A stretch of DNA of 64,000 nt from Neoroseomonas terrae (GTDB taxonomy: Bacteria; Pseudomonadota; Alphaproteobacteria; Acetobacterales; Acetobacteraceae): the NCBI RefSeq assembly GCF_018129025.1, contig NZ_JAAEDI010000019.1:62001-126000 (forward strand), given 5' to 3'. Shown here piece by piece: positions 21,571-64,000 of the stretch. The notes beneath the pieces are model-generated. The model had not been told where the DNA came from. It made no database searches and saw only the letters and a list, made by a program, of their open reading frames with translations. The position numbers and the translations under genes are program-made. Position 1 is the stretch's first letter. Each line of letters begins with the position of its first letter.

Positions 21571-21620
21571 CGCGGTTCCTCCTGCATGATGATGCGGGAG
21601 CATAGGCACGGGCCGTTCCG

Positions 21621-22112
21621 ATGACGAAGACGCTGCTGGTAGTCTTCCATTCCATGACCGGCGGAACCCGGCAGATGGCCGAGGCCGCGGCGCGCGCGGC
21701 GGAAGGCGAGGGCGTGGCCGTGCGGCTGTTGGAGGCGTGCGACGCCGGGCCCGCGGATGTGCTCGGCGCCGATGCGTTCATCTTCGCGACGCCGGAGAAT
21801 CTCGCCGCGATGGCGGGGATGATGAAGGACTTCTTCGATCGGACCTATTACGCCGCGCTCGGACGGATCGAAGGGCGTGCCTACGGGCTGATGGTCTGCG
21901 CCGGCAGCGACGGGACCAACGCTGTGCGGCAGGTGGCGCGCATCGCGATAGGGTGGCGACTGCGGGCGGCGGCGGAACCGATCATCGTATGCACACACGC
22001 GCAGACGCCGGAGGCGATCCTCGCGGCGAAGGTGATCCCGCCGGATGAGATCGCTCGCTGTGAAGAACTGGGAGCGACCATCGCCGCCGGATTGGCGATC
22101 GGGATGTTCTGA
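21621..22112 (+). CDS. flavodoxin-like NAD(P)H-dependent oxidoreductase
   Basis: 163 residues. The flavodoxin fold starts with the FMN-phosphate loop VVFHSMTGGTRQMAEAAARAAE, then DAFIFATPENLAAMAGMMKDFFDRTYY and a third strand YGLMVCAGSDGTNAVRQVARI. This is the family of WrbA-like or NADPH-FMN reductases. It may be a quinone or flavin reductase in the cytoplasm. The 184-base gap after it contains the hairpin repeats described separately. Confidence 0.75.
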   Translation: MTKTLLVVFHSMTGGTRQMAEAAARAAEGEGVAVRLLEACDAGPADVLGADAFIFATPENLAAMAGMMKDFFDRTYYAALGRIEGRAYGLMVCAGSDGTNAVRQVARIAIGWRLRAAAEPIIVCTHAQTPEAILAAKVIPPDEIARCEELGATIAAGLAIGMF

Positions 22113-43338: not shown

Positions 43339-43431
43339 GGAGGGGTGGCCGAGTGGCCGAAGGCGGCGGTTTGCTAAACCGTTATAGGATGTCAAGTCCT
43401 ATCGTGGGTTCGAATCCCATCCCCTCCGCCA
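43339..43431 (+). tRNA. tRNA-Ser (GCT), CCA encoded
   Basis: Class II tRNA. The acceptor stem GGAGGGG (43339-43345) pairs with CCCCTCC (43421-43427), followed by discriminator G and CCA. The anticodon loop TTGCTAA gives anticodon GCT, which reads AGC/AGT serine codons. A long variable arm (ATAGGAT/GTCCTAT) and the T loop TTCGAAT are present. The 3' end is the likely integration site of the island that follows. Confidence 0.96.
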
Positions 43432-43474
43432 GTTTCCTAGGTTTTCCTTGGCTTTCCGGGCGATTTGAGAGCCC

Positions 43475-43530
43475 TTTACCCGCGTTTTTACCCGCGCAGA
43501 TGGCGCGATGCGGTGAGACCGGGTGAGACC
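43475..43530. repeat. direct repeats next to tRNA-Ser, possible integrase arm sites
   Basis: Two copies of TTTACCCGCG (43475-43484 and 43487-43496, 12 bases apart) and two copies of GGTGAGACC (43512-43520 and 43522-43530, 10 bases apart) lie within 100 bases of the tRNA 3' end. Short direct repeats next to a tRNA attachment site are typical of the arm-type binding sites of tyrosine integrases. Confidence 0.45.
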
Positions 43531-43588
43531 TAATCGGGGCGAGCCCGCGTGCTACCGTTCCGGACCCTGAACCCGTCCGGAGTCGTCA

Positions 43589-43849
43589 ATGTCCGCGTCC
43601 ATACCGTCCCTACAGCACCCTGTTTCCTTCGCGGCCAACATCCTGCTCGCGAACCTAGTGGGCCTGATGCGCGCGAAAGGAATGCTCACCGACGCGGACA
43701 CGGAACACCTGTTTAGCGGGACCGATAGCCGGCTGATCGGCACCAACATCGGGGACAACGTCCTGTATGAAACCGTGGTCACGGAGGCGCTGTCGATGAT
43801 GCGCGGGATCGCGTTGAACTTTCCGGCGCCGGAGGCGGAGCCGGACTAG
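43589..43849 (+). CDS. hypothetical protein, 86 residues
   Basis: Starts at ATG 43589 with GGAGTC upstream. The sequence (SFAANILLANLVGLMRAKGMLTDADTEHLF, NVLYETVVTEALSMMRGIALNF) is helical with no membrane or signal segment. Its stop overlaps the stop of the opposite-strand GIY-YIG gene by four bases. I do not recognise the family. It is the first gene inside the island. Confidence 0.6.
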   Translation: MSASIPSLQHPVSFAANILLANLVGLMRAKGMLTDADTEHLFSGTDSRLIGTNIGDNVLYETVVTEALSMMRGIALNFPAPEAEPD

Positions 43850-44697
43850 CCGGCGCAGCCCAGCGCCCCGATGTGGCGAAGGAGGTCCGCCCGCCTGCGA
43901 GCAAAACCGGCGAGCGCGGCCTTCAGGTCAGAGCCCAAGACGGCGCGGAAGGTGTCGAGGTCATGCGCTCCGGCTGCGCGTAGTGCCTCGCGGGCGGCTT
44001 CGTATCCCCGGACTTCGATCGCGAGCCGGACCAGCGCGGCGCCTCGGGGGCGATCGGCGGCGGGAAGGCGATGGCCCACGAAGTTCTTAGACTTGAAGGC
44101 GGGGTCGGCGTGCTGAGACTGCGCTACGGCTTTGCGCCTTGCGCGCGCCTCGGGCCGCAACGTAGCGAGCCTGAGCCCGGTTAGATATCGCTCCCGAAAC
44201 TCCGGGTCAGCATGAAGGCGTTGAATTGCGGCCCGGTGATGAGCCTTGAACTCTGGCTGCGCGTGGTTGCGCTTCATATCCTCAGACGTGGCGCCGTCCC
44301 CGCCGTCCGACCTGTTGAGAAGCGAACCCGTCCCGAGGTCTTCGCGCCCGAGGCGTCTGATCCACTGGCGCTCCCGCGCGTTCGCCTCCGCAGCGGCCAG
44401 GCCCTCCACGAGGATGCGGACTTCGATCGTCGCACCTTCGCGAAGCCTCTTGGCGACGGTCCTCTGCCATTTTGGATTGACATACCCTGGCACCACTTGT
44501 GACCGTCCCGCTTGGCGAGCGGCATTCAGGCCGTGCGCGTAGCGAAGGTGGTCCCAGCATCGCCGGCCGCTCCCCTTCCCGACATATCGGGGGACCCCAG
44601 CGAGGATGTAGCAGTAGACGTATGCCCCATCGGGGGCGGGGTCCGCTTCGCTGATCTGACGGCCAAACACGCGCTGCGTTCCATCCGGCGCGCCCAT
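43846..44697 (-). CDS. GIY-YIG nuclease-like protein
   Basis: 283 residues from ATG 44697 with GGAGAGG upstream. Near residue 25 the protein reads GAYVYCYILAGVPRYVGKGSGRRCWDHL, matching the GIY...YVG core of GIY-YIG nucleases, followed by Arg; a Glu is in AAAEANARERQWIRRLGRED (near residue 110). After residue 135 there are two to three repeats of the kind H-A-[D/Q]-P-x-F-[K/R] (HAQPEFKAHHRAA, HADPEFRERYL, HADPAFKSKNF) that resemble modules of homing endonucleases. It could be a homing nuclease or a defence nuclease; no intron or intein is visible nearby. Confidence 0.65.
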   Translation of the reverse strand: MGAPDGTQRVFGRQISEADPAPDGAYVYCYILAGVPRYVGKGSGRRCWDHLRYAHGLNAARQAGRSQVVPGYVNPKWQRTVAKRLREGATIEVRILVEGLAAAEANARERQWIRRLGREDLGTGSLLNRSDGGDGATSEDMKRNHAQPEFKAHHRAAIQRLHADPEFRERYLTGLRLATLRPEARARRKAVAQSQHADPAFKSKNFVGHRLPAADRPRGAALVRLAIEVRGYEAAREALRAAGAHDLDTFRAVLGSDLKAALAGFARRRADLLRHIGALGCAG

Positions 44698-45308
44698 TCG
44701 CGCCGCCTCTCCGGCCTAGCCGGCGCGCGGAAAGGAGGGAAGGAAAACGTCAATGCGGGCGGCGAAACTGCACTTGCGCAGAAACACATCAAGGATGCGC
44801 GTAGGGCTGTGTCAGCGATTTGGCTTGGCGGAGGTATGGGCACATCGCCAAAACTCAGAAATCAAGGGAGCGTTGAGACTCCCGCAGGCTACCCGGCCAT
44901 GTCGGGATCGACAGGCGCACCGTCCGCGATCGCCACGAGACGCGCCGCGACAGCGCGTAGGACGTTCGCCCGGCGCGCCTCGGTGAGCCCGGGGAACTGG
45001 TCGCGGACCGTCGCTGCCATCCCGTCCCCGAACATCGAGCCGAGCAACGCGGGATCGAGCCCGACATTCCCCATCGCCTCGGCGATCCCGGTGTCGCACG
45101 TCCGCGCAAGGCCCGAATGGCGTGCTGGCTATTCCGCTCCCGCTTACCCTATTCACTCAATTACGCGGTGATCCTAATGAGCTGCGACTGGTTGATCAGG
45201 CTGCGTGCGGATAAGCTCAATTTCATCGCCGCATAGAGCCAGAGTGCCAGGACTCGCATCTTCCTATCGACGCTGTAACCTATCATCTCATGAATACGGG
45301 GCGGACGT
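44698..45308. other. non-coding or decayed region in the island
   Basis: 611 bases, with a drop in GC from about 45140. A minus-strand open frame at 44889-45126 (containing GNVGLDPALLGSMFGDGMAATVRDQFPGLTEARRANVLRAVAARLV) has a protein-like helical pattern but no ribosome site, and looks like a fragment of a longer gene. The last 150 bases lead to the phosphatase gene and should hold its promoter; none was clear. Confidence 0.4.
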
Positions 45309-46472
45309 TTGATCGAGCGGATACAAAACAGATTGGCGAAAGCCTTAGAGGCTCAAGGCTCAGCGAAAGTCGTCCGCACGCAAAGCGGGGCAGCAATCGG
45401 ATCAAGTGTCGGATTGGTGCGAAAACGCAATGAAGACTGCTGTCTGGTCGTGCGAGCCTCCTATCCACATGGTGGCCGCGCGAATTTCACCATAGCGATG
45501 GTTTGCGATGGCCTGGGCGGGATGAGTCAGGGGCGGGAAGCCGCTATCCTTGCTGCGAGCGCCTTTACCGCTCACTTGTTTTGCATCGCAGCCACTAGCT
45601 GCGAGGCAAGCATTTCTCGCGCGATATCTTATGCGAACACGCAGGTTTATGGGCAGCTCCGCGGTGACGGCGGCACAACGCTTTCTGCGGTAATTTCATC
45701 CCATAGTGGGGCGATGTTCTGTCATGTCGGCGACAGTCGCATCTACGGTGTTATGCCGGACCGTGCGCTAGAGCAACTAAGTCGCGACGACACTATTAAC
45801 GCAGCACTAAAACGGCGAGAGGCGGAAGCTGGAGCCCCGAAGGATTCCCGGCTGCTACAGTTTGTCGGTATGGGTGACGAAATGGAGGCTCAAATCGCCG
45901 GCGTTCCGGTTCATTGCCGCTCCGTTCTCCTGACATCTGACGGCGCGCATGATGTTCCGCATTCTGTATTCCAACGTGTCGTCAGTGCCGCTGCGGGAGG
46001 AAGTGATCTAATCCGCAAATTGCTTACGCTGGCTGATATGACGGGCGGCCGCGACAACGCTTCTGCTATTCTTCTTCCCATCGGAACCGAGACGGAGTTT
46101 TACGAAGACAGCGGAGAGCACGAGCTTCTCGTCGTCCTCCCCAATGATACGATGGCGATTTACATCGCCGGGCCCGATGCTTGGGAGCGGTCGGACAATA
46201 GGGGCCATTCGCCGCCGAATCATCCGGTTCGTGAGACGAGCAGGCCCCTTGAAGAGGCACGCGCTCCGGCAAGTATCGACCGAAGTGAACCTGAGCCCAA
46301 AGTGCTCCCCCCGAAGAGTAAAGGAACGGCAACGAAGGCGCGCAGGCCAAGGCGAAGTGCAGCGCGCCCTAAGACGGACGCAGCCGAACGCCTGCCGCTT
46401 GATGAGCCCGGCAATAAAGTCGATGTGAAGTTTTCTACTCCGGCCAACCAATCGGAAGAGGACCAGCAATGA
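45309..46472 (+). CDS. PP2C-family Ser/Thr protein phosphatase
   Basis: 387 residues from TTG 45309 with GGGGCGG upstream. All PP2C metal-site motifs are present: GLVRKRNEDC (Asp 43), VCDGLGGMSQGREAA (Asp 67), GGTTLSAV, HVGDSRIY, LLTSDGAHD (Asp 211) and GGRDNAS (Asp 249). The fold ends about residue 258. The remaining 130 residues are a low-complexity basic tail (KSKGTATKARRPRRSA). It should remove phosphate from Ser/Thr residues set by the two kinases encoded directly after it. Its stop overlaps the next ATG (ATGA). GC content is about 15 points below that of the core genes, a sign of transfer. Confidence 0.9.
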   Translation: MIERIQNRLAKALEAQGSAKVVRTQSGAAIGSSVGLVRKRNEDCCLVVRASYPHGGRANFTIAMVCDGLGGMSQGREAAILAASAFTAHLFCIAATSCEASISRAISYANTQVYGQLRGDGGTTLSAVISSHSGAMFCHVGDSRIYGVMPDRALEQLSRDDTINAALKRREAEAGAPKDSRLLQFVGMGDEMEAQIAGVPVHCRSVLLTSDGAHDVPHSVFQRVVSAAAGGSDLIRKLLTLADMTGGRDNASAILLPIGTETEFYEDSGEHELLVVLPNDTMAIYIAGPDAWERSDNRGHSPPNHPVRETSRPLEEARAPASIDRSEPEPKVLPPKSKGTATKARRPRRSAARPKTDAAERLPLDEPGNKVDVKFSTPANQSEEDQQ

Positions 46473-47539
46473 AATTGCCCGCTCGTTACGAGGCAGTCGG
46501 TTCTCCGTTTTCCGGTGGGGGAATGTCGACGGCGTTCAAATGCAAAGATAAGCATCTTGACCGCCATGTTCTCGTGAAGGTGCTGCAAGAAGGTATCGAC
46601 CAGAAGCGTATTCTCGACGAAGTCAAAGCACTCAGCGCAATTCGCTCAAAGCATGTTGTTCAGATCTATGATGTTCTTAAGGACCGCTCCGGCGCGGTCA
46701 CGGCACTCGTGGAGGAATTCCTTCCAGGCCAAGATCTAGATGATGTACTACCGATAACGGACACGTCGACTTTCCTGCGTCATATTTACGCGATTGCCTG
46801 CGGTCTCGCCGATATTCATGCAGTGGGAGTTGTACACCGCGATATAAAGCCTAATAATATGAAGATTGATGCAGAAGGCTGTCTCCGAATATTTGATTTC
46901 GGGCTATCCCGCACGGACGGCGTCAACAGCGAGACGATAGGGACCATCGGAACACTGGGCTACATCGCTCCAGAACTCTGTGCTCCGGCGAATCAAAAGG
47001 TTAGCTTCACATTGGCCGTCGATGTTTTTGCATTTGGTGCTACGGCGCTCAAGCTGGTTCGTGGCAGGTTGCCTAGCGATCTCCGCGCGATCCCACCGAA
47101 TCTGCCAGCCACCGATGCAGACTTTACCAAGCAAACGCTTGCTCTTCCGCCCGCGATTGCAGCAACTTTAAATCAATGCCTTTCAAAAAAGCCGATGACG
47201 CGACCCAGTATGGAAACAGTCCGGAATATTATTGGCCGTCACCTGCTCCATGGTCGGCATAAGGCGACTATGATCGCTGGCGACAAGATACATTATCTTG
47301 AGAAGATCGGACAGTCCGTGAAGCTCAGTGCGGGATCGCTAGGATCAGTGGATGTTAGTTATGACGGTTACGATTTCATTGCGACTAACGTCACGGGCGA
47401 CGTCTATATAAACAACATGGGAATCATACCGCCGCAAAAATTGCCTGGCGCATCCGTTATTACTCTCGGCGCGCCAAGCCTCGGCTTTCAACGGCAGTAC
47501 ATCACTTTTGATGTAACGCATCCGGAGGTGATACTTTGA
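46469..47539 (+). CDS. Ser/Thr protein kinase with C-terminal beta-rich (FHA-like) domain
   Basis: 356 residues. The kinase core is complete: Gly-rich loop FSGGGMSTAF, Lys 37 in VLVKVL, Glu 51, catalytic HRDIKPNN (residues 123-130), DFG at 143-145 and IAPEL at 166-170. From about residue 268 the chain turns beta-rich (VKLSAGSLGSVDVSYDGYDF, TGDVYINNMGI, KLPGASVITLG), reminiscent of the core of FHA phosphothreonine-binding domains, although the usual Arg/Ser contacts are not clear. It overlaps the phosphatase gene by ATGA and the next kinase by TTGA, so the three proteins are made together. Confidence 0.88.
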   Translation: MKLPARYEAVGSPFSGGGMSTAFKCKDKHLDRHVLVKVLQEGIDQKRILDEVKALSAIRSKHVVQIYDVLKDRSGAVTALVEEFLPGQDLDDVLPITDTSTFLRHIYAIACGLADIHAVGVVHRDIKPNNMKIDAEGCLRIFDFGLSRTDGVNSETIGTIGTLGYIAPELCAPANQKVSFTLAVDVFAFGATALKLVRGRLPSDLRAIPPNLPATDADFTKQTLALPPAIAATLNQCLSKKPMTRPSMETVRNIIGRHLLHGRHKATMIAGDKIHYLEKIGQSVKLSAGSLGSVDVSYDGYDFIATNVTGDVYINNMGIIPPQKLPGASVITLGAPSLGFQRQYITFDVTHPEVIL

Positions 47540-48609
47540 GTGGAGTGCTACATACGGCTGGCGACATCGTCGGCGATCGCTACGAAGTCACGACCTATAT
47601 CGGCCAAGGCGGTATGCAGGAAGTATACCGCGTTCACGATCGTTTGCTTGAACGGGACGCTGTCCTAAAGTCTCCGAAAAATCCATCGGCGAAGAAGCGA
47701 TTCAATAGAAGTGCTACCCTAAGCGCTCGCGTCAACCACGACAACGTGGCGAAAACGCTTGACTACGTTGAGGATGGTGATCGCTTTTACTTGATTGAGG
47801 AGCTCATTGAGGGTTGCGATCTAGGATATTTTTTAAAGAACTATGTAAGTATTCTGGATCCTTTCGCTGCTGGCCGAGTGATGCATCATCTGGCTAAGGG
47901 GCTAGCCGCTTCCCACCGTGTCAACGTTGTTCATCGCGATCTGAAGCCGACAAACGTCATGGTTGTGGGTGGTCAAAATTTCACAGGCTTTAAGATCACT
48001 GACTTCGGCATCGCAAAGATGGCGCAGGAAGAGATTGGAGAAGCCGTGGCCGGTGATGAAGAAGGATTAACCAGTTCTCAGACCGCGCTCGGAGCCCTTC
48101 CATACATGGCGCCTGAGACGATCGACGACATGCAGAATGCAGGCAAGCCGGCGGATGTTTGGGCGATCGGCGCGCTAACCTTTGAAGTTCTAACCGGCAA
48201 TCGGCCCTTTGGCTTCGGGTACAGAGCCGTTCCGCTCATTCAGGCAGCTAAGGTACCTCCGCTGCCTAGTCCATTGACAAGCAACACGCAATTCGCTCCG
48301 TTTGCGAGAGCGGTATTCGATCTTATCACTGCGTGCATGCAGAAGAATCCGGCGGCGCGCCCCACTGCCGACCAACTCGTCACAACCTGCGAGGGCTTAT
48401 ATTACTCAACAGTTCCGCGCGAATTCGGAACGATAAGAAGATTCGATAATAGTAACTGGGGTTTCGCTGGTGCGCCGAGTGGCGCTGTTTTTTGCCATGT
48501 GAAATCAGTCTTTGCGGCGTCTAGCTTGGCCGTTGGCGAACGCATTTGGATGACGACATATCCGGGCTCTCCTTCCCGCCGAGCCTTTCCTATCGTGAAG
48601 GCCGTGTAG
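47536..48609 (+). CDS. Ser/Thr protein kinase fused to cold-shock-like domain
   Basis: 357 residues from TTG 47536, with GGAGGTGAT (47525-47533) as a strong ribosome site. Kinase motifs: GQGGMQEVYRV, Lys 45, HRDLKPTN (133-140), DFG (156-158), MAPET (191-195) and DVWAIGALTFEVLTGNRPF. After residue 295 the sequence reads EFGTIRRFDNSNWGFAG, GAVFCHVKSV and LAVGERIWM, matching the order of a cold-shock OB fold (G-T-I-x-x-F ... GF ... VF-x-H ... L-x-x-G). This would couple kinase activity to single-stranded RNA or DNA binding. Low GC like its partners. The CSD reading is mine from pattern only. Confidence 0.85.
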   Translation: MSGVLHTAGDIVGDRYEVTTYIGQGGMQEVYRVHDRLLERDAVLKSPKNPSAKKRFNRSATLSARVNHDNVAKTLDYVEDGDRFYLIEELIEGCDLGYFLKNYVSILDPFAAGRVMHHLAKGLAASHRVNVVHRDLKPTNVMVVGGQNFTGFKITDFGIAKMAQEEIGEAVAGDEEGLTSSQTALGALPYMAPETIDDMQNAGKPADVWAIGALTFEVLTGNRPFGFGYRAVPLIQAAKVPPLPSPLTSNTQFAPFARAVFDLITACMQKNPAARPTADQLVTTCEGLYYSTVPREFGTIRRFDNSNWGFAGAPSGAVFCHVKSVFAASSLAVGERIWMTTYPGSPSRRAFPIVKAV

Positions 48610-48662
48610 ACGGTCGACGCTACGGCGTTTTCAGAAGGTTTAGCTGTTGGTCGTGGCGCCGC

Positions 48663-49061
48663 TCACCGCACCGACCCCCCGACCTCGCGGATGGCCATAC
48701 TGAGGGTTACCGCGCGACCGCCGGAGCGAAGATCACCGCGCGCGTCGATGGACAAGAGGACCGTGCGCGGGTCCTTCCCGGTGATCGGCTCCGCCTTGAC
48801 GATCGCGACGTGCACGCCGCCCTTGCCGTCATGCGACGCGGTCGGGAGGACGGTCGCGCCCCAGGCCAGTCGGCGCGTCAGCCGTTCGGCCAGATCGGCG
48901 CGCAGCCGGGCGGCTGCTGCGTTCGCTGCTGCGGTCGGGTAGCTGATCCCCGGCGCGACGGCGCGCGAGGCGGCGACGGCGGCCGCGGCGCGGGCCCGGA
49001 GTTCGCGGAGACGCTTCTGGCGGAGGATCGTCGCGACGATGGGTGCGGGATCGTAGGGCAT
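48663..49061 (-). CDS. hypothetical protein, 132 residues
   Basis: Starts at ATG 49061, overlapping the upstream stop by ATGA. The N-terminal half is Ala/Arg-rich helix (ATILRQKRLRELRARAAAAVAAS, AAANAAAARLRADLAERLTRRLAW); the C-terminal half has a strand-like AIVKAEPITGKDPRTVLLSIDARGDLRSGG. It is last in a four-gene minus-strand operon. No family is recognised. The style resembles accessory genes of phage-like elements. Confidence 0.6.
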   Translation of the reverse strand: MPYDPAPIVATILRQKRLRELRARAAAAVAASRAVAPGISYPTAAANAAAARLRADLAERLTRRLAWGATVLPTASHDGKGGVHVAIVKAEPITGKDPRTVLLSIDARGDLRSGGRAVTLSMAIREVGGSVR

Positions 49062-49426
49062 CACGCCGCCTCCCCTTCCTGCGCAATACACAGATCGAGC
49101 CAATGACTCAGGGCCCGGACCTCTTCGCCGAAGGCGGCCGCCGTGCGCGCGATGCGCGCCGCGCGGTCTTCCTCCACGATGCGGGCGAAGCCCTGCACTT
49201 CGCCGATTGCGGTCTTGGCCTCGCGGACGGCCAGGCCGTTCTCCGCCTCCACGCGGGCGAGGCCGGCGCTCAGGTCGCGCTCGACTCTCGCGATGTTCGC
49301 GCTGATGTCGCGGACGTGGACCGCGAGGGAGGATTCGAGTTTCCGCCCCAGCGCGGTGATCTCCCCGCCGAAAAAGTCGCGGACGGCACCGATGATGGCG
49401 GCGTCGCGGTCATCAAGGTTAGCCAT
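49061..49426 (-). CDS. coiled-coil hypothetical protein, 121 residues
   Basis: ATG 49426 lies inside the end of the upstream gene (8-base overlap). The sequence is almost all heptads (EITALGRKLESSLAVHVRDISANIARVERDLSAGLARVEAENGLAVREAKTAIGEVQGFARIVEED), so a rod-like coiled coil is expected. It is third in the operon. Unknown function. Confidence 0.62.
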   Translation of the reverse strand: MANLDDRDAAIIGAVRDFFGGEITALGRKLESSLAVHVRDISANIARVERDLSAGLARVEAENGLAVREAKTAIGEVQGFARIVEEDRAARIARTAAAFGEEVRALSHWLDLCIAQEGEAA

Positions 49427-50015
49427 TGTCGGTCATCCCGTAGGTGGAGAGGACGCGGGCGCGGAGGCGGTCGCCATCCTTCACGCCGCGCGCGACGGCG
49501 ACGGCATCCGCGATCGCGCGGAGGTCGGTTGCGGCGCGAAGGAAGAGGGCGGAGACACGCTCCACTTCCTGGCGGATGGCCGCCCTTGCTGCCGGGTCGG
49601 CGAGGCCGGCGGGGGAAAGCAGGTCGGCGCGGAACTCAATGAGTTTTCGCGCCTCCTTCGATCCCCGCCCGGGTCCATCGGGCAGCAGCTTCCCGGTGTC
49701 ATTCGATAGGAGGGCGGCCGCGGCGGCGCGGAAGGAGACGACCTGGAAATCAAGCTGACAAAGATAGTCGCGCAGGACCTCGGAACGCCGCGCGACCTCG
49801 GCAGGATCGTCGCCGGCTTCGCCGAACCACTTGAGCGCCTTCTCACTCTCCCCGAGGGTCAGCGGGCGGTCGGAAGACCAGCGGCGCCAATTGCCTTCGT
49901 CGCGGCCGAAGTCGCCGATGAGGAACAGCGCCTCATCAATTCGGCGAATCTCGTCAGCGGTAATGCCGTTGTCCTCGCCCGTGGGCGGGAGCGGGGGGAA
50001 CGGAACAACGGTCAT
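49419..50015 (-). CDS. hypothetical protein, 198 residues
   Basis: Starts at ATG 50015, overlapping the metalloprotease-like gene by ATGA. Mostly helical (DEIRRIDEALFLIGDFGRDEGNWRRW, SEKALKWFGEAGDDPAEVARRSEVLRDYLCQLDFQV, SKEARKLIEFRADLL). No known motif seen. It is second in the operon. Confidence 0.62.
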   Translation of the reverse strand: MTVVPFPPLPPTGEDNGITADEIRRIDEALFLIGDFGRDEGNWRRWSSDRPLTLGESEKALKWFGEAGDDPAEVARRSEVLRDYLCQLDFQVVSFRAAAAALLSNDTGKLLPDGPGRGSKEARKLIEFRADLLSPAGLADPAARAAIRQEVERVSALFLRAATDLRAIADAVAVARGVKDGDRLRARVLSTYGMTDNG

Positions 50016-50653
50016 GCGACTGACCTCCACAGGTTGATGCGGCGAAGGTTCCCCGCGGCGTCCACTTCGATCCGCGCGGGCGGCGCGAGTTCGGCGCGCA
50101 CGTGATCCGCGATCGTTCGGATCAGCGTCACTGACTCAGGCCCCTGACCTTCCGGCCAGTGGTTGAGGTCCTTCGCGGTATCGAGGGGACGATTGAACAG
50201 CGTGCGCGAGGCGCCGCCGATCGCGGCGCGGTAGGAGGGGCGCGATGCATCGTCGGGGTATCGGTCCAGATCGTCGCGCACGAGTTCGGCGGAGCCGGTG
50301 CGGGAAAATTCGATGAGGTGGACGATTTCGTGCAGGAGGATCGCGGCGAATTGACGCGGCGATATTCCGTGCGTCTTCGCCGGGCCCGCATCGGCGGCGC
50401 TTCCGGCGGCGGGAAGGATCACGGTCAGCGTCGGCGCTTCCGTGAAGCCCAATGAATGCTCGCTGCGCCAGTAGCCGTTCGGGATGACCTTCACTGAAGG
50501 CGATGCGTAGGGCCGGGGGTGCGGCAGACGGGCGAGAACGTGGATGAGGGTCGCGTCGGCGATGAACTGTTGCGCGGCGATGGCGCGCTGCTGATCGAAG
50601 GGGACCAGACCGGCGAGGGCGATGACGTCTTCCAGCGGCGGTGCGTTCGGCAT
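50012..50653 (-). CDS. HEXXH-containing protein, probable metallopeptidase-like
   Basis: 213 residues. The motif ILLHEIVHLIEFSRTG near residue 107 is a zincin HEXXH with hydrophobic surroundings as in true metallopeptidases; Glu in AELVRDDLDRYPDD could be the third ligand. The N-terminal part (DQQRAIAAQQFIADATLIHVLARLPHP) is helical. It leads the coupled four-gene set at 48663-50653. No signal peptide, so it should act in the cytoplasm. The family is not recognised. Confidence 0.65.
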   Translation of the reverse strand: MPNAPPLEDVIALAGLVPFDQQRAIAAQQFIADATLIHVLARLPHPRPYASPSVKVIPNGYWRSEHSLGFTEAPTLTVILPAAGSAADAGPAKTHGISPRQFAAILLHEIVHLIEFSRTGSAELVRDDLDRYPDDASRPSYRAAIGGASRTLFNRPLDTAKDLNHWPEGQGPESVTLIRTIADHVRAELAPPARIEVDAAGNLRRINLWRSVA

Positions 50654-50674
50654 GGCGGCGTCTCCGTATGGTTC

Positions 50675-50756
50675 GGCGGGAGAGGCCCCTGGGGACCTTG
50701 GGGAGGACCACTGACCTCTCCCGCCTATCGCCCTCGGGAGAGCCCCCCCCCGAGGG
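50675..50756. repeat. two GC-rich hairpins between 50653 and 50765
   Basis: An 11-base perfect inverted repeat GGCGGGAGAGG (50675-50685) / CCTCTCCCGCC (50715-50725) with a 29-base loop, and CCCTCGGG (50731-50738) / CCCGAGGG (50749-50756). The second follows the 94-residue gene directly and may end its transcript. Confidence 0.55.
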
Positions 50757-50764
50757 TGAAGGGT

Positions 50765-51049
50765 TCAGGCTGCTTCCGGCGACGGGGCGATGCTCATCAC
50801 GATGGTGTCCCCGGCGGAGCCGTCCGGAAGCCGTTCCTGGAAAACGGTCGCGCCGTCCTCGGTCGTGACCTCGACATTGGCGCCGGGAACGTCGCTGCCA
50901 ATCGTCATGGCGCCATCGGCCGGGCCGATCACGGCCAGTTCGCGGCGACGGGTCGGGAAGGCGGCGCGGGTGACGGCGGCGGCCGCGATCGGGGCGCCGC
51001 GCGAGCCGGCGGTGAAGTCACGGCGGCCGTAGCCGAAATTGCGATCCAT
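50765..51049 (-). CDS. hypothetical protein, 94 residues
   Basis: ATG 51049 with GGAGGATCC upstream, a strong ribosome site. MDRNFGYGRRDFTAGSRGAPIAAAAVTRAAFPTRR is basic and flexible; the second half looks like a small beta domain (TIGSDVPGANVEVTTEDGATVFQERLPDGSAGDTIVM). It is divergent from the HTH gene at 51151, which may regulate it. Unknown family. Confidence 0.6.
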   Translation of the reverse strand: MDRNFGYGRRDFTAGSRGAPIAAAAVTRAAFPTRRRELAVIGPADGAMTIGSDVPGANVEVTTEDGATVFQERLPDGSAGDTIVMSIAPSPEAA

Positions 51050-51150
51050 CTGGATCCTCCACATCGGGGGCGTCGAATGGCCGGGAGGCTAGGCCGCGAT
51101 GCAGAAATCCCGGAATAGACCTTAAGTAACTTCCGAGATACTATCCCCGA

Positions 51151-51402
51151 ATGTTGGTCATCGAGACAAACAACGTCAAGTATGACTCCCCAAGGCTACT
51201 CGCTATCTCAATAAAGGCGGCGAGGGTCAAGGGTCGATTGTCGCACGACAATATCGCAGCAAAGGCCGGGGTTAGCCGTCTGACGGTCATCCGGGCGGAG
51301 AAGCCAGACCGGATCGGCCGGTGCCAACTCGGGATCGTCCTGCTGATCCTTGAGGCTCTTGCAATGCTTGGAAGCCCTGTGGAGGTTTACGACCATGAAT
51401 GA
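51151..51402 (+). CDS. XRE-like helix-turn-helix protein
   Basis: 83 residues. LLAISIKAARVKGRLSHDNIAAKAGVSRLTVIRAEKPDRIGRCQLGIVLLILEALAMLG matches the Cro/C1-type HTH, although the helix spacing is slightly unusual. Likely a DNA-binding regulator of the divergent small-gene operons. The 100-base gap between it and 51049 contains GGAATAG and CTATCCC as a loose inverted pair that may be its operator (weak). An IS5 remnant begins right after the stop. Confidence 0.65.
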   Translation: MLVIETNNVKYDSPRLLAISIKAARVKGRLSHDNIAAKAGVSRLTVIRAEKPDRIGRCQLGIVLLILEALAMLGSPVEVYDHE

Positions 51403-51429: not shown

Positions 51430-51735
51430 GTGCGCAGGCTGTCCCCCTTCATCCAGCGCATCATCGGCGGCGCAGGCTATCAGGGCCCGACGATGGCTGC
51501 GGCGGCAGCCCGCACCAGCACATGGACGATGAAGATCGTGCGCCGCTGCGGCCGGCATCGCTTCGTCGTGCTGCCGAAGCGCTGGATTGTCGAGCGCACC
51601 CTGGGCTGGAGCAGGCGCGCCCGACGGCTGACCCGTGACTTCGAGCGGCAATGCCGCATCGCCGCCGCCTTCGTCCGGATGGCAATGATCCGCACATGCT
51701 CCGCCGCCTCGCAGCAAAGCTTTCAGTGTGAATTC
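51430..51735 (+). pseudogene. IS5-type transposase, C-terminal remnant
   Basis: The frame carries GGAGYQGPTMAAAAARTSTW, then RHRFVVLPKRWIVERTLGWSRRARRLTRDFE and AAFVRMAMIR, the last third of an IS5-group DDE transposase. The N-terminal two-thirds, including the first Asp residues, are missing, and the end runs into the helicase gene. It is a dead fragment. A similar 3' end is at 54605-54704. Confidence 0.75.
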
Positions 51736-54440
51736 ATACTTCCCGGATCACCTTTGAGTGGGATGTTGGCCGTGGCCTTGCAGCCGTCGCGAAAGCGCGA
51801 GCATCCATAGAAGGGACCGTTGCTACCCTTCTTCTCCTGGATCACGCCCTTCTCGCACACGGGGCAAATTTGTCCGGCGACCACTGGCACCGTAATCCGC
51901 TCGGAACGTCGCACAGGTGCCGTATTCATTACTTTGCGCGTTCGGTTGCAGGCCGGAAAGTGCGAACAGCCAAGGAAAGTGCCGTCGCCACGCGGCACCA
52001 TGACGCCCCCACAGCCTGGCCGGGCGCACGGTTCCACGCCCTCTCCGTCCAAAGGTTCGATCGCCAAGTGTTCGCGCTTGACCAGTTCCACCAGGAACTG
52101 GGAGGGCTGAGTCAGGAGGGTATAGAAGCGTACCTGTTTGCTGGCGCGGGTCATGGCCACGTAGAACAAGCGGCGCTCTTCGGCGAACGGGTATGGGTCG
52201 GGAGCGGGCATGGCCAACTGGAGCGCGGGGTCGTCCTGGATCTGGCTAGGAAAGCCATGGGTGCCTTCGAGGACGTTGAGGACGAAGACGTATTCGGCTT
52301 CCAACCCCTTGGAACCGTGCGCTGTCTTGAAGTCGATCTTCAACCGGTCGCCGAACCGCTGTTGCCACCGGGCCAACGAGGCCGGAATGTCGCGCCGATA
52401 GCGACCCAGTAGCAAGATCGTGATTTGGGCACCTTTAGCTGGCTTGAGTTTGCCCGCAGCGGCGTAGCGATGCATGTCGGCCAGCTGCTGTTCGATGTGG
52501 CCGGGAATCGCGTCTTCCTGGGCGAACCCATACGCCAGCATCGGCGTTTTTGTTAGCGGATTGGTGGTTTTGACGGTCTTTTTGATCTGGGCGGGGTTCG
52601 CCTGGATGAATTGGCTGGACACATCGCACAGGTGCTGCGGACAGCGGAACGTCGTGTTGAGCGTCAAGCGCGTGGCGTAATCAAAAGTCTTCTCGAACTC
52701 CGTCATGACCGAGATATCAGAGCCTGCGAACCGATTGATCCCCTGCCAATCGTCGCCAACCACGCACAGGTGGGTGGGCACGCCTGGGTTTCCGGCTAAC
52801 GCCTTCAACAACCGGACGCGAGCGCTGGAACTGTCCTGGAACTCGTCGGCCAGGATAAGGATGAAGGGGCTCCTGTAGGCCCCGGACTCCACATGTGTGG
52901 CCGCCTGGATGAGCATGTCCTCGAAGTCGATGAACCGACCCGCCCGTAGACGACGCTCCCATTCGCCCTCGATACGTTCGTAGAGGGCCAGGTACATGCT
53001 CAGGCGGGCGCCGTACCCGTCAGTGGACTGCTCGTTCAAGGCTGCTTGCAGCTGGGCGTGAGTCAGGCCGTTGTTCTTTACGTGCTGCTGGAACACCCGG
53101 AACGACCTAGCTAGGTCCTGCTCGTCGACGGGGGCCAACCCTACGACTTTCCGCGTGGGATTGAACACCGGCTTAACACCGCGAGCGATCAACGCCTGTT
53201 CCAGGTCGGCAATGGCCCGCCCAGTCAACAAGCCATGTGAGGTGGTCTCGACCAGCGCAGTGCACTTGTCGACGTGGAGTTGGCGCTTCCACTCCACGCC
53301 TTTGAGGTAGTCCTTGAAGGCCTTGGGCGCCTCGCCCTTTCCATTCAAGGCGAAGTGTTCGTGGTAGAGATTGGCGTCTGGATAATAAAAATCCGGAAAG
53401 TATTGGCGGTACTGGTTGTCAGATGTATCGTATTCGTAGGCGCGCTCGTACTCGTAGGCCACGCCGTTGTAGAACAACCAGTCCGCGATTATCCGCTCTT
53501 CCTTGCTCTTGACGATCTCGCCGTGGGCCGTGAGAAACCCCCGCCGGCCGTCCGCATAGGCGTCAGGCTCCTGGTCCTGACCCCACTTGCCAACGTCGCG
53601 CGCATAGATCGTGCGGAACTGGTCCCAGTCGCGCTTGAATGCCGCGTCCTGGTCCGACAAAGTTTTGATGATTTCGGACACTTCCCGGATGTCGGCGCCG
53701 GGGTTGTCAGGGCTTACCCAAGGCGCAAGCGCCGGCCTCTTGCCGGTGGCCTTTCCGATGACTTCGATGCCGAAGGCGTGGAAAGTATTGGAGCGCACCT
53801 TGCTCACGTTAGGCACACTACGCAGTCGCTCGGTGATCCGCTGACCGAGTTCTTCGGAGGTGGCTTTGTTGAACGCCAGCAACAGGATTTGCTCGGGCGC
53901 GGCCAGTTTTTCGTGGAGGGCGTAGCCGGTCTTGGCCACCATGGTAGAGGTTTTGCCCGAGCCGGCGGCGGCCACGACCATGACGCTATCGTCCATACAG
54001 ATACAGGCATGGATCTGCTCGTCGGTCAGCGGGTTCTTCTCCACCGTGTTGAAGAAGTCCCTTCGCACTACCTTCTGGCGTGCTAGGTGGCTGGCGTTCA
54101 CCTTATCGAACTGGATCCGCACGCTCTCTTCAGGCGATGACGCACCGACCGCCTGCCTCCAGGTCTTTCGCGGGTGCTTGGGCGCTGGGTACTTGGCCAG
54201 AAATCGCGGCGCGGCTCCCTTGGGGATCCATCTATCACTGCCAGCCAAGGCCGACAGATGCCCCTCCCACTGCTTGAACGCTCCTTGAAATGTGTCGTCA
54301 TCCCTCTTTTGGTTGGCTCGTCGTTCGGCTTCCACTGCAGGATCGATCGCTGGCTTGGCTGGAGGATCGTTCCGAGGTGTCTTGATGCCGACTATCTTCC
54401 CGATGATCCATAGCAGACCAATGAGTATCAAATACTCCAT
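51723..54440 (-). CDS. UvrD/HelD-type helicase with embedded PD-(D/E)XK-like domain and zinc fingers
   Basis: 905 residues. Order: an N-terminal membrane-like segment (residues 2-18), Walker A AAAGSGKT (157-164), an inserted nuclease-like region (EERIIADWLFYNGVAYEYE near 315-332, YFPDFYYPD with Asp 350, then LVETTS with Glu 398), motif II LADEFQDSS, motifs TTFRCPQH and GSKGLEAEYVFVL, and ERRLFYVAMTRA. Two C4 zinc ribbons end the chain (CARPGCGG..CSHFPAC and CPVCEKG..CSRFRDGC), like topoisomerase C-terminal fingers. It unwinds DNA and may cut it. GC is lower than its neighbours and IS5 fragments flank it, so it seems to have come in separately. Confidence 0.85.
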   Translation of the reverse strand: MEYLILIGLLWIIGKIVGIKTPRNDPPAKPAIDPAVEAERRANQKRDDDTFQGAFKQWEGHLSALAGSDRWIPKGAAPRFLAKYPAPKHPRKTWRQAVGASSPEESVRIQFDKVNASHLARQKVVRRDFFNTVEKNPLTDEQIHACICMDDSVMVVAAAGSGKTSTMVAKTGYALHEKLAAPEQILLLAFNKATSEELGQRITERLRSVPNVSKVRSNTFHAFGIEVIGKATGKRPALAPWVSPDNPGADIREVSEIIKTLSDQDAAFKRDWDQFRTIYARDVGKWGQDQEPDAYADGRRGFLTAHGEIVKSKEERIIADWLFYNGVAYEYERAYEYDTSDNQYRQYFPDFYYPDANLYHEHFALNGKGEAPKAFKDYLKGVEWKRQLHVDKCTALVETTSHGLLTGRAIADLEQALIARGVKPVFNPTRKVVGLAPVDEQDLARSFRVFQQHVKNNGLTHAQLQAALNEQSTDGYGARLSMYLALYERIEGEWERRLRAGRFIDFEDMLIQAATHVESGAYRSPFILILADEFQDSSSARVRLLKALAGNPGVPTHLCVVGDDWQGINRFAGSDISVMTEFEKTFDYATRLTLNTTFRCPQHLCDVSSQFIQANPAQIKKTVKTTNPLTKTPMLAYGFAQEDAIPGHIEQQLADMHRYAAAGKLKPAKGAQITILLLGRYRRDIPASLARWQQRFGDRLKIDFKTAHGSKGLEAEYVFVLNVLEGTHGFPSQIQDDPALQLAMPAPDPYPFAEERRLFYVAMTRASKQVRFYTLLTQPSQFLVELVKREHLAIEPLDGEGVEPCARPGCGGVMVPRGDGTFLGCSHFPACNRTRKVMNTAPVRRSERITVPVVAGQICPVCEKGVIQEKKGSNGPFYGCSRFRDGCKATANIPLKGDPGSMNSH

Positions 54441-57207: not shown

Positions 57208-57443
57208 ATAGCGGGTCGCGAGGGGGCGAAAATACCGGGTCGATACCGGGTCGCTGATAGCGGGTCGCCCGCCGTTTCCCTGGTTTAGCGCGAAGTGAGA
57301 CATAGAAAACCACAGCGGGTCCTGGCCTAAATACCGGGTCGCTCGCGCTATGCCGCGGATTTCCTCGATTTTTCCTTGGCATCCCGCGAGAGGCGACCCG
57401 GTATCTGACTCGTTCGAAAATACCGGGTCGCGCGACCCGCTAT
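57208..57443. repeat. array of 12-base iteron-like repeats
   Basis: The unit ATA[C/G]CGGGTCG[C/A] occurs at 57208-57219, 57232-57243, 57243-57254, 57257-57268, 57331-57342 and 57420-57431, and in inverted form at 57393-57404 and 57432-57443; a weaker copy is at 57312-57322. The last two units face each other and form a long palindrome that covers the stop codon of the replication protein gene. Short, evenly built repeats beside a primase/helicase gene resemble the iterons of a replication origin or autoregulatory sites. Confidence 0.7.
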
Positions 57444-59761
57444 TTTTCCACAACGCCTTCGGCCTTTTCGAGTGCCGCGCGGCCTGCCCGGGTGATGAAC
57501 GTCTTCCCCTTCGACTCCCCCTTCGTCGCCACGCGGAGCAGCCCCGTCTTCACCAGCCGGGCAATCGCCCGCTGATAGGTCGTGAGCGCAACGCCCACCG
57601 CCTCGGCAAGGTCCCGCTGCGAAGCATCCTTCCCCGCTGCGTCAACCGCACGGAGGATCGCCCGGTCATCCTCAGGGTCCGCACGCCGCCGATCTGCCTT
57701 GCCCGCCTCCTTCACGTCCGGAAGGTCTTCCTTCGCGCGCGCCGCCTCGACATTGTCGACGATCAGCGCCGAGCCTTCCTGCACACGCCCGCTCGGATAT
57801 CGGACGTTGAGCCATTCGCGCCCGTCCACGCGGGCGAGGCGGACGGTGAGCAGGTGCCCGTCCACCGCATCCGCCCGGAACTTCGTGCCCTTGAGGGTCG
57901 ATACCTTTCCGGTTGGTTGCGGCGCATCTTTCGGCCGGACCGGCAGCGTGTTCTTCGCATCCGTCTTCGTCGGCTCCAGGATCAGGATGAAATCCAGGTC
58001 GCCATCGAACGCCATCGAGCCGCGCAGCCGATCCGTCTCCTTCCGGCCGGGGTGCGCCAGGACCAGGACGGTGGCGCCCGGGAACGCCAGCGCGACATCT
58101 CGCGCCGAGTTCATCATATCGCCCGCGTCGGCGGCGCTGTTCTCATCGAGCCCGGGTGCCCGATGCCGCGCGAGGGTGTCGAAGACAAACAGACGGAACG
58201 GGCGCCGCCGCCGGAGTTCGGTGAGGCGCAGAACGTCGATGATCTGCGCCGTCGCCTTCGGGTCGCCGAGCCGGGCGGAGAGGCTGTCCATGACGAAGAA
58301 GCCGGCCTGCCGGAGCCCGTCCCGGCCTTCAATGCCGAGGGCTTCTAGCTGCGCGCGGAAGCGGTGGTGCACGCCCGTCGCATCTTCGCCTGCGAAGTAG
58401 CCGACCATCCCGCATTCCTCTTCGATCGGCTCAAGCCCCGCGACCGGACGGGCGAGACAGACCGCCGCGGATAGGCCGATCGCCAGCGCCGTCTTGCCGG
58501 TGTTCGGCAGCGCCACCAGCGCACCGACCATGCCGGCGGGCAGGATGCCGGGGACGATGTAGCGGGCGGGCAGCCGGTCCATTGCGAGTTCGGTGCTCTC
58601 GAAAGCCCCGAGGTAGAAAGCGCCGTCACCCCGTTGCAGCGAGGTGGTCAGCCGCGCAATCTTGTCCCGGTCCCCCTGGCGCGCCTCCGCCGTCGCGCGC
58701 TCCGCGTCCGTCAACGCGCGGAAAGGAGACAGGCTGGTGGTGAATGCTCTCGCCTTCTCCGGATCGCCGCCGCCGACATAGTCCGCGGCTGCCGCCTCCG
58801 CGGCCGCGAGGTCGCCACTATGCTCCAGGCGCACATACGCGGACCAGGGATCGAACAGGCCGCGCAGCGGATCGTCGGTGTCGTGGCAGAAGTAGAGGTC
58901 CGTGGTGCCGCGGATGTGCTTGATGCCGGCGTTGCCGCGCGAGCCCGGGCCACTCCATCGGTCGCCATGCTGCTCATAGCCATTATCTTCCAGAATGCCC
59001 TCCGCCGTCACCGCCGCGTTGAAGTGGTTCCGGTAGCGCGAGCGATACGGCAGGGTGTTCTCCCCCGCAGTGTCGTCGCCGGGGTCGTCAGGTGGCACGC
59101 CGAGCGCATCGCGCAGTTTCGGCAGCATGGCCTCATAGCCCTGCCAGAGCCGCAGCAGCCCGGCCGGCAGCGGGGCAATGCGGATCGGCCCGGCGCGGTA
59201 GGGGTTGCCCGTGTCGGGGTGGACCGAGGGCGGCGCGACCGATTGCAGGTTCATGACTTCACCCTTCGCGTCATAGCCGGAGCGCAGCTCAAAGACGGTG
59301 CGGCGGCGATGCGGCTTGTCCGGGGTCGGGTCCGGGATCGTGAAGCGGTAAGTCGGCAGCGTCATGCCCTCTGGCGCAGCGAAGACGATCCGCGTCCCGC
59401 GCCCGTGAATCGCCCAGCCCGAGGCGATCAGCGCCGCGACGCTCACCCCGGCGGCGCCGAGGGCCTTGCGGGCGAGTTCCACCGCATCGAGGTCCAGTTC
59501 AACCACGCCCGAGGCGGCCAGGTGGTAGCCGATGTTGGGCGGCGGGACGGCGCCGAAGACCTCCCGCGCGGCGTCTTCCGTGACCACCAGGCGGCCCGGC
59601 AGATACCAGCCTGTCTGCGTCGGGCGCTTGCCTTCCAGCGGGACCAGCGAGAAGCCCCGCCGAATGTAAATCACGGCGGGGACGGCCATGCTCGGCGTAG
59701 ACGGCGCAGCTTCGGTCCGGGTAATATTCGCCCCGCTAGTCGCCTTCTTTGACTTGTTCAT
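57440..59761 (-). CDS. replication protein: Prim-Pol domain, RepA-like AAA ATPase and C-terminal winged helix
   Basis: 773 residues. Residues 30-200 are the bifunctional primase/polymerase (Prim-Pol) domain with VVELDLDAVELARK as the metal-binding strand and IHGRGTRIVF. Residues 400-620 are a RecA/RepA-type ATPase with Walker A VALPNTGKTAL (415-425) and Walker B RLFVFDTLARHRAPG. The C-terminal 80 residues carry an HTH (SQRDLAEAVGVALTTYQRAIARLVKTGLL). Such proteins start replication of plasmids, satellites and integrative elements. The iteron-like array at its 3' end fits that role. Confidence 0.88.
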   Translation of the reverse strand: MNKSKKATSGANITRTEAAPSTPSMAVPAVIYIRRGFSLVPLEGKRPTQTGWYLPGRLVVTEDAAREVFGAVPPPNIGYHLAASGVVELDLDAVELARKALGAAGVSVAALIASGWAIHGRGTRIVFAAPEGMTLPTYRFTIPDPTPDKPHRRRTVFELRSGYDAKGEVMNLQSVAPPSVHPDTGNPYRAGPIRIAPLPAGLLRLWQGYEAMLPKLRDALGVPPDDPGDDTAGENTLPYRSRYRNHFNAAVTAEGILEDNGYEQHGDRWSGPGSRGNAGIKHIRGTTDLYFCHDTDDPLRGLFDPWSAYVRLEHSGDLAAAEAAAADYVGGGDPEKARAFTTSLSPFRALTDAERATAEARQGDRDKIARLTTSLQRGDGAFYLGAFESTELAMDRLPARYIVPGILPAGMVGALVALPNTGKTALAIGLSAAVCLARPVAGLEPIEEECGMVGYFAGEDATGVHHRFRAQLEALGIEGRDGLRQAGFFVMDSLSARLGDPKATAQIIDVLRLTELRRRRPFRLFVFDTLARHRAPGLDENSAADAGDMMNSARDVALAFPGATVLVLAHPGRKETDRLRGSMAFDGDLDFILILEPTKTDAKNTLPVRPKDAPQPTGKVSTLKGTKFRADAVDGHLLTVRLARVDGREWLNVRYPSGRVQEGSALIVDNVEAARAKEDLPDVKEAGKADRRRADPEDDRAILRAVDAAGKDASQRDLAEAVGVALTTYQRAIARLVKTGLLRVATKGESKGKTFITRAGRAALEKAEGVVEK

Positions 59762-62436: not shown

Positions 62437-62990
62437 CCATCATCTTTGCGACGGGGCGGATGCAGGAACAGCGGCAGCGCGAGGATTGCCTTTCGCGTCT
62501 TCGGACTGCCGAACCAACGCCGCCGCATCGTCGCCTCGGTGAGCCCGCTCGCGGCCGCGACGGCGCGAAGGATTTGCGTCATGTTCGGGCTCGGCCCTGC
62601 CAGCCGGCGCCGATGCAGGATCGCCCGCTCCACGCTGGTGCGCCATTCGATCGGCGGCTCATCGTCGCCTTCCCAGATCGGCGGCTCGATTTCCCTCGGC
62701 TCACCGATAAAGCCTGCGGCCCGCCGCCTTGCCGTCTCCGCGCCCCCCGCCTTGCCGGCTGCAACAGCGTCGGCGGATCGCTTCTCCGCGGCGGCGGTCT
62801 TCGCCGCATCGGCGGCGGCGACCTCGCCGGACAAGCCGGCGAGCACGGCAGCGAGTTTGGCCTTCGCAGCGTCCAGCGCCTTCGCGACCTCATCGGCGCG
62901 GCCGGCGTAACGCGGCACCGTGCGCAGCCTCTCCGCCTCCGCGGCGAGCGCGGCGATGCGGTCGATGAGGTCGTCAGTCTCACTCGCCAT
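62433..62990 (-). CDS. hypothetical protein with coiled coil, 185 residues
   Basis: ATG 62990, inside the last bases of the integrase gene (11-base overlap). The N-terminal half is a coiled coil (LIDRIAALAAEAERLRTVPRYAGRADEVAKALDAAKAKLAAVLAGL). The C-terminal half contains an HTH-like NMTQILRAVAAASGLTEATMRRRWFGSPKTRKAIL, so it may bind DNA. It is translated with the integrase. Unknown family. Confidence 0.62.
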   Translation of the reverse strand: MASETDDLIDRIAALAAEAERLRTVPRYAGRADEVAKALDAAKAKLAAVLAGLSGEVAAADAAKTAAAEKRSADAVAAGKAGGAETARRRAAGFIGEPREIEPPIWEGDDEPPIEWRTSVERAILHRRRLAGPSPNMTQILRAVAAASGLTEATMRRRWFGSPKTRKAILALPLFLHPPRRKDDG

Positions 62991-64000
62991 CTGCCGCCGC
63001 TCCCTTCTTCACCTTCGTTCCGGTGGAGAACGCGCCCCATCGCGTCATGAGCGCACGCCGCTGGTCCAAAAGATCGCTTCGCAGGTAAGCCCGAACAACA
63101 CCATCGCCGACCGTGTGCGCCAACGACATTTCTGCGGCCGTCCAATCCTCTCCGCGCTCCGCGCACCAGTCGCGGAAGGTGCTGCGGAAACCGTGCACCG
63201 TCAGGCCGGCAAATCCCTTCTTCCGTAGCATCATCGCCAACGCCATGTTTGACAGGTGGCCCGCGCCGCCCCGAGACGGGAAGACCGGGGCAGCCGGATC
63301 GTCGGACAGGCGCATCTCCGCAGCCGCAGCGAGCACAGCGAGGGCAGGGGCGGAGAGGGGAACCCGGTGCGGCCGTCCCGCCTTCATCCGCTCGCCCGGC
63401 ACGGTCCAGACCTTCGCCTTGAGGTCCATCTCTCCCCACTTCGCGCCGATCGTCTCGCCCGTCCGCGCCGCGGTCAGGATCGTGAAACGAAGCGCCAAGG
63501 GAGCGGAGCCGCGGGTCGCAGTCATTACCTTCACGATTGTCGGAACATCGGCGGCGGCGGCCGCGGCGTGGTGCTTCACCGTCGCGACCCGCGAGCGCGG
63601 AGGAAGGAGCCGCGCCATTGCGCCCTTCCACCGCGCGGGATTGTCGCCGGAGCGAAGGCCGCGCGCCGATGCGGCATCTAGGACAGCCTCAACGCGACCA
63701 CGCACGCGCGTCGCTGTCTCGGGCTTTGTGCTCCAGATCGGCGAGAGGATCGTCAACATATCCTCCGCCGTGATCGCGTCCACGGGACGATCGCCGATCG
63801 TCGGATAGGCATAGGTTTCGAGCGTCGTGCCCCACTGTGCCGCGTGCTTCGCATTGCGCCAGGAAGGCGTCATGGCGGTGAGGTAGTCCCTCGCAACCTC
63901 CTTGAAGGTTGGAGTCGCTTTCGGCGCCTCGCGGGTCCTCATCGCCTGCGGATCATCGCCGCGGGCGAGCGCAGCGCGAGCCTCGCCGGCCTTCTCCCGC
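62980..64000 (-). CDS. P4-type tyrosine integrase, N-terminus outside the window
   Basis: The frame is open to the right edge; 339 residues are visible. It lacks only the N-terminal DUF4102-like arm domain. The core includes the SAM-like TFKEVARDYLTAMTPSWRNAKHAAQW, the catalytic Arg in ILTAARTGETIGAKW, HGFRSTFRDWCAE (His-x-x-Arg), and LAHTVGDGVVRAYLRSDLLDQRRALM with the nucleophile Tyr in AYLRSD. It should integrate the island into the 3' end of a tRNA gene, here probably tRNA-Ser(GCT). It reads inward from the far end of the island. Confidence 0.93.
   Translation of the reverse strand, partial: REKAGEARAALARGDDPQAMRTREAPKATPTFKEVARDYLTAMTPSWRNAKHAAQWGTTLETYAYPTIGDRPVDAITAEDMLTILSPIWSTKPETATRVRGRVEAVLDAASARGLRSGDNPARWKGAMARLLPPRSRVATVKHHAAAAAADVPTIVKVMTATRGSAPLALRFTILTAARTGETIGAKWGEMDLKAKVWTVPGERMKAGRPHRVPLSAPALAVLAAAAEMRLSDDPAAPVFPSRGGAGHLSNMALAMMLRKKGFAGLTVHGFRSTFRDWCAERGEDWTAAEMSLAHTVGDGVVRAYLRSDLLDQRRALMTRWGAFSTGTKVKKGAAADGE

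Follow-up and report, generated by a model that had tools for sequence, protein, structure and literature searches.

A 64,000-nucleotide stretch of the Neoroseomonas terrae genome (contig NZ_JAAEDI010000019.1, positions 62,001 to 126,000; the window) carries three joined genes at 45309-48609 that very probably constitute a KKP module, i.e. the tripartite toxin-antitoxin and anti-phage module PfpC-PfkB-PfkA described by Guo et al. in 2024 (Nat Commun, PMC11341870). The trio is cargo of an integrative element inserted at a tRNA-Ser gene. The original prediction, made from the sequence of the window, had proposed a candidate new signalling or defence module. As the trio agrees with KKP in the order and lengths of its genes, in its domains and in its location on mobile DNA, we regard it as a new copy of this published system and not as a new system.

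The first gene (45309..46472, + strand, 1164 bp, TTG start) encodes a PfpC-like PP2C Ser/Thr phosphatase of 387 amino acids, the proposed antitoxin. It is followed on the same strand by genes for a PfkB-like Ser/Thr kinase (46469..47539, 1071 bp, ATG start, 356 amino acids) and a PfkA-like Ser/Thr kinase with a cold-shock-like tail (47536..48609, 1074 bp, TTG start, 357 amino acids). Four-base overlaps join the genes, ATGA at 46469 between pfpC and pfkB and TTGA at 47536 between pfkB and pfkA. PfpC matches PP2C_2 of Pfam (E 5.7e-7, 29.7 bits against a cut-off of 24), keeps all four metal-site aspartates (residues 43, 67, 211 and 249) and matched phosphatases in the PDB, with 2jfr at the top (E 8e-9). 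Both kinases match Pkinase of Pfam (PfkB with E 1.2e-33, PfkA with E 4.6e-43) and contain the GGM, HRD and DFG motifs; the active-site residues are Lys37, Glu51, HRD Asp125 and DFG Asp143 in PfkB, and Lys45, HRD Asp135 and DFG Asp156 in PfkA. Frames, domain matches and overlap sequences are thus in agreement with the predicted PP2C and two kinases. The metal-site, Lys, HRD and DFG residues are intact as had been claimed, while the serine that takes the place of the helix-C glutamate in PfkA had been overlooked.

The trio also stands out by its base composition. Its GC content is 0.542, compared to 0.651 in the remaining element and 0.689 in 33 kb of left flank, which bears out the lower GC noticed earlier. 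The GC minimum along 75.5 kb (723 sliding windows of 3301 bases each, step 100) begins at 45201. Promoter- and terminator-like sites were counted no more often than in shuffled sequence, and repeats within 43432-51200 were discarded as they resembled chance GC-rich matches.

The published KKP survey filtered for gene lengths of 900-1300 bp and for the domains PF13672 and PF00069, and its authors describe PfkA as having a cold-shock domain that bears a GFI/A motif, and PfkB as having an FHA domain (PMC11341870). The present copy shares the order of a PP2C and then two kinases on one strand, with all three genes inside this length range, both domains, the kinase motifs and the phosphatase aspartates. 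The tail of PfkA, at about 48418-48606, contains the motif as GFA rather than GFI (residues 309-311). In a set of 43 PfkA sequences, comprising that of the window, those of 26 further loci (see below) and 16 homologues, the GF of this motif is kept in 41. A profile built from 20 PfkA tails hit cold-shock proteins with E values down to 1.3e-7, and 13 of these 20 tails have a CSD match in Pfam; comparison at the sequence level therefore supports a tail of the cold-shock type.

Several observations weigh against the KKP assignment. The PfkA tail of the window itself has no CSD match in Pfam, and a Pfam search with the two isolated kinase tails of the window gave no useful match. The tail of PfkB (about residues 260-356) is beta-rich, is matched by 43 proteins and is FHA-like by position, but unlike the published PfkB it is recognized as FHA neither by Pfam nor by hhalign. 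Pfam found FHA (PF00498) in none of 26 proteins of the PfkB family and in none of 19 of their tails, and hhalign of the tail with 11 FHA domains from the own genome and relatives gave a probability of 0.4, equal to the control. A sequence profile search of the PDB likewise found no FHA for this tail. AlphaFold models, which were built on shallow alignments and are of poor quality (mean pLDDT 54.8 and 38.4), show residues 271-340 of PfkB mostly as strands in a block with pLDDT 62-81, the mean of 54.8 being that of the whole PfkB model. Structural comparison returned kinases and barely covered the PfkB tail, so that the missing FHA row there is uninformative. PfkB tails from trios in P2-like prophages are also without an FHA match, and we therefore tentatively read the missing match as divergence of the tail in this family. 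Further points against the assignment are that the resemblance to experimentally tested KKPs (such as those of Pf6 of MPAO1 and of E. coli 15EC039) is one of published features, and that no known defence gene besides the trio was found within the element.

The element is delimited by an exact 23-bp repeat. Its left copy (43415..43437, + strand) consists of the end of the target tRNA-Ser (GCT) gene (43339..43431, + strand, ARAGORN) and six further bases. The right copy, identical in 23 of 23 positions, lies past the window end at the window-equivalent positions 64353-64375, resulting in a unit of 20,938 bp from att to att. Adjoining this far copy is the gene of a 404-residue tyrosine integrase (62980..64000 in the window, running on to 64194, - strand) with Phage_integrase, Phage_int_M and Arm-DNA-bind_3 domains and a match to the phrog_1 integrase (E 1.3e-45). 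The mobile island that had been postulated is thus substantiated. We name it an integrative element and not a complete prophage, because no capsid, tail or portal match to PHROG was obtained among ten element proteins, a scan short of some small frames. A 25-bp exact direct repeat lies just inside the left att copy (43473-43497) and again shortly before the integrase start (L026:2202-2226); the two copies are possible arm-binding sites of the integrase. A PfkA match (E <= 1e-60) was obtained in 1 of 99 genomes, namely the own genome, and in 0 of 98 relatives, 34 of them from the same genus. In 11 relatives (L059-L069) the tRNA-Ser locus is free of element sequence over about 1.5 kb to its right. 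The right flank is matched in only 2 of these 11 (89-90 bp, 74-77%) and the left junction of the element also matches it, over 60 bp; the support for an empty site is therefore weak.

A search for homologous three-gene clusters, which the original prediction had called for, returned 26 further loci with PP2C and two kinases in the same order, a recurrence beyond what chance would give. Several of them are near-identical E. coli copies, and counts across these loci are not independent. The 4-bp overlap of PfkB and PfkA is present in 26 of 26, and identity to the window ranges from 39 to 83% for PfkA and from 36 to 85% for PfkB (residue and identity comparisons leave out L025, which has the same E. 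coli trio). Plasmids from Rhizobium (a Ti plasmid among them), Agrobacterium, Xanthobacter, Pantoea and E. coli carry trios, as does a Klebsiella phage record; six of nine plasmid records with a PfkB match were fetched, and among 27 matching phage records the one covering at least 80% of the query was fetched and the other 26 were left out. Viral contigs carry the trio at 14 of 31 loci and lack it at 17, and genome contigs carry it at 4 of 10, the remaining six being other kinases. Among 5426 complete E. coli genomes, 14 carry a trio at 99% identity or more.

The settings of these trios are mobile ones, including P2-like prophages, the phage record, plasmids and predicted viral contigs, and are not mainly the conserved chromosomal loci that would have spoken against a mobile module; the single PfkA gene among 99 genomes is in line with this. 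In eight of the 14 viral-contig trios and in two E. coli chromosomes the module is flanked by the P2 genes A (gpA, replication) and Q (portal). This interval has been reported as a site of KKP (PMC11341870) and described as a P2 hotspot of anti-phage systems (PMC9122126). Around the trios on the four genome contigs (L014-L017) none of 13 reference proteins, the sole set tested, was matched. Proximity to known defence genes, also raised in the prediction, is found in rhizobial copies. On one Rhizobium plasmid Shedu SduA (L008:6178-7626, PADLOC E 4.6e-138) is immediately upstream of the trio, and on two rhizobial plasmids annotated ABC three-component genes follow directly 3' of it (L009:11401-14954 and L013:11398-14951). 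Not every one of the 26 trios is intact: at L012 an annotated transposase gene separates the phosphatase and kinase genes, and short frames occur in L015 (PfkB) and in L030 and L007 (phosphatase). The record of Planktothrix phage PaV-LD has a kinase (21216-22010) that shares 46% identity with PfkB along 74% of its length.

In a tree of PfkA (28 rows and an outgroup, with long branches on several rows outside the group of the window) the window falls in a supported 10-row group (99/100), which holds Gluconacetobacter, Gluconobacter, Pleomorphomonas and metagenomic proteins. The named close relatives of the module belong to the first three of these genera and to a Sphingomonas metagenome-assembled genome; like the MucR/Ros regulator of the genome, they point to an alphaproteobacterial member of the family. 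Compared to the related trios of E. coli P2 prophages, PfkB is 37% and PfkA 48% identical.

In protein kinases a glutamate of helix C normally clamps the ATP-site lysine. The expected position of this residue is occupied by Ser59 in the window PfkA, and PDB alignments place Ser59 opposite the glutamate of StkP (9ruk) and that of a second kinase chain (9ymt). The position is Ser in 42 of the 43 PfkA sequences and Gly in one, while in PfkB it is Glu in 65 of 66 and Lys in one, with gaps in three further sequences; as many rows are related, these counts demonstrate conservation and not independent events. A control drew on 23 further kinases encoded at the fetched loci; 21 could be aligned and 18 had a residue at this site (17 Glu, 1 Asn), in an alignment that is gappy near the lysine. 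According to Guo et al. neither KKP kinase phosphorylates appreciably by itself, and the main text of their paper is without the words glutamate, salt bridge or pseudokinase (PMC11341870). A tentative explanation, which we consider possible but doubtful, is that KKP is an obligate two-kinase machine, in which the PfkB tail, where no FHA phosphopeptide signature was detected, docks onto PfkA, the partner devoid of the helix-C glutamate, and completes its active site. Such docking would account both for kinases that are inactive singly and for the gene overlap kept at all 26 further loci. Active kinases lacking the helix-C glutamate do exist, which argues against this idea. So does the description of both KKP kinase domains as having similar activity (PMC11341870). 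The cold-shock tail of PfkA could in addition provide nucleic-acid sensing, as a second trigger besides the inhibition of PfpC by phage.

For relatives of the module toxicity, phosphoproteomics and phage plating data are published: the two kinases are toxic jointly, the phosphatase counters this toxicity, the module protects cells from T4 as well as some T-odd phages, and binding of T4 Gp59 to PfpC is a trigger (PMC11341870). By analogy, we infer that this copy works as a KKP in its own host. PfkA and PfkB would then jointly form an active Ser/Thr kinase, the toxin, which would phosphorylate many essential host proteins and halt growth, while PfpC, the antidote, would silence the kinase pair by phosphate removal. 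A protein of an infecting phage may bind or disable PfpC, and the freed kinases would arrest the cell before the phage could spread. In Pseudomonas aeruginosa KKP controls Pf prophages via phosphorylation of MvaU (PMC11341870), and PfiA has been reported in 2026 as a further phosphorylation target (PMC13048266). No PF00816 (H-NS family) protein was found in the own genome by a model whose ability to detect MvaU is unchecked, and the published silencing route via MvaU may therefore not apply here; a MucR/Ros regulator is present.

The remaining genes of the element include a Prim-Pol/AAA_25 replication protein (57440..59761, - strand; AAA_25 E 2.1e-23, Prim-Pol E 1.4e-11) and a UvrD-type helicase of 905 residues with C-terminal topoisomerase zinc ribbons (51723-54440). 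PADLOC matches of this helicase (GajB and others) were taken as general helicase similarity and not as defence membership. The same applies to the trio kinases, whose PADLOC matches (PD-T4-6, mad6, PglW and others) and NCBIfam matches, the latter all under curated cut-offs, were taken as general kinase similarity. The neighbouring frame 43846-44697, predicted to be GIY-YIG nuclease-like, has a weak homing endonuclease match in PHROG (E 3.7e-4) and none in Pfam, so that this prediction is weakly supported. A 126-residue frame at 51430-51810 has a weak DDE transposase match and is possibly a remnant, and the frame 50012-50653 contains an HExxH-like stretch seen by eye, without a Pfam or PHROG match. 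Beyond the right att copy, on the same contig outside the window (L026:4430-10564), a protein of 2044 residues, which combines DUF4011 with AAA and MTES_1575 REase domains, matches the PADLOC candidate PDC-S37 with 1204 bits; it is possibly a second defence gene adjoining the element.

A different role of the same module deserves consideration, in which it would mainly keep or regulate its element by addiction, or by control of excision and of co-resident elements via phosphorylation of a host silencer, and phage defence would be secondary. The element has its own integrase, the action of the P. aeruginosa module on Pf prophages via MvaU and later PfiA is of this kind, and Guo et al. leave open an inter-element role outside prophages, where in their view copies might mediate interactions of mobile elements or serve defence alone (PMC11341870). 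The lack of a detected PF00816 protein speaks against such a role, although the MucR/Ros regulator might be borne in mind, and so does the finding that KKPs from four unrelated prophages shielded E. coli from T4 (PMC11341870). We consider this rather unlikely as the main function. That the genes are instead a secretion-associated host signalling pair similar to PpkA/PppA, transferred onto the element by chance, is very improbable. PfpC is distantly similar to PppA (6jkv, E 1.8e-6) and both kinases to PknB-type kinases, but a host pathway is hard to reconcile with the absence of a PfkA match from all 98 relatives. Moreover, contig 11, away from the locus, carries the other PP2C match of the genome and one of the two FHA matches, and no secretion gene was seen among the scanned element proteins, some small frames not being covered.

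The TerY-P conflict triad comprises a vWA protein (TerY) beside a phosphatase and a kinase. With the trio it has in common a PP2C and a kinase in one mobile cluster. It differs in that no vWA match was obtained among the scanned neighbours, as had been anticipated, that two kinases with characteristic tails take the place of one, and that 26 further loci hold all three genes as one unit. A TerY-P relative without vWA is thus the least credible of the explanations and extremely unlikely. KKP remains the closest known system; relatives of this copy share even the P2 gpA-portal interval. More than 1200 KKP clusters are published, over 90% of them in prophages including P2 and P4 (PMC11341870), while the copy described here is on a tRNA-Ser integrative element and not in a recognized prophage. 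The new aspect is a group of close KKP relatives which is represented here on such an element, and the trio raises the question of a mutual dependence of two kinases, PfkA without and PfkB with the helix-C glutamate. Stk2 of Staphylococcus, as described by Guo et al. (PMC11341870), is likewise a Ser/Thr kinase in phage defence, but a single, host-encoded one, compared to two kinases and a phosphatase in overlapping genes on a mobile element. Finally, the same authors suggest a relation to type VII toxin-antitoxin systems, where the likeness would be an antitoxin proposed to strip a chemical group from the toxin (PMC11341870).

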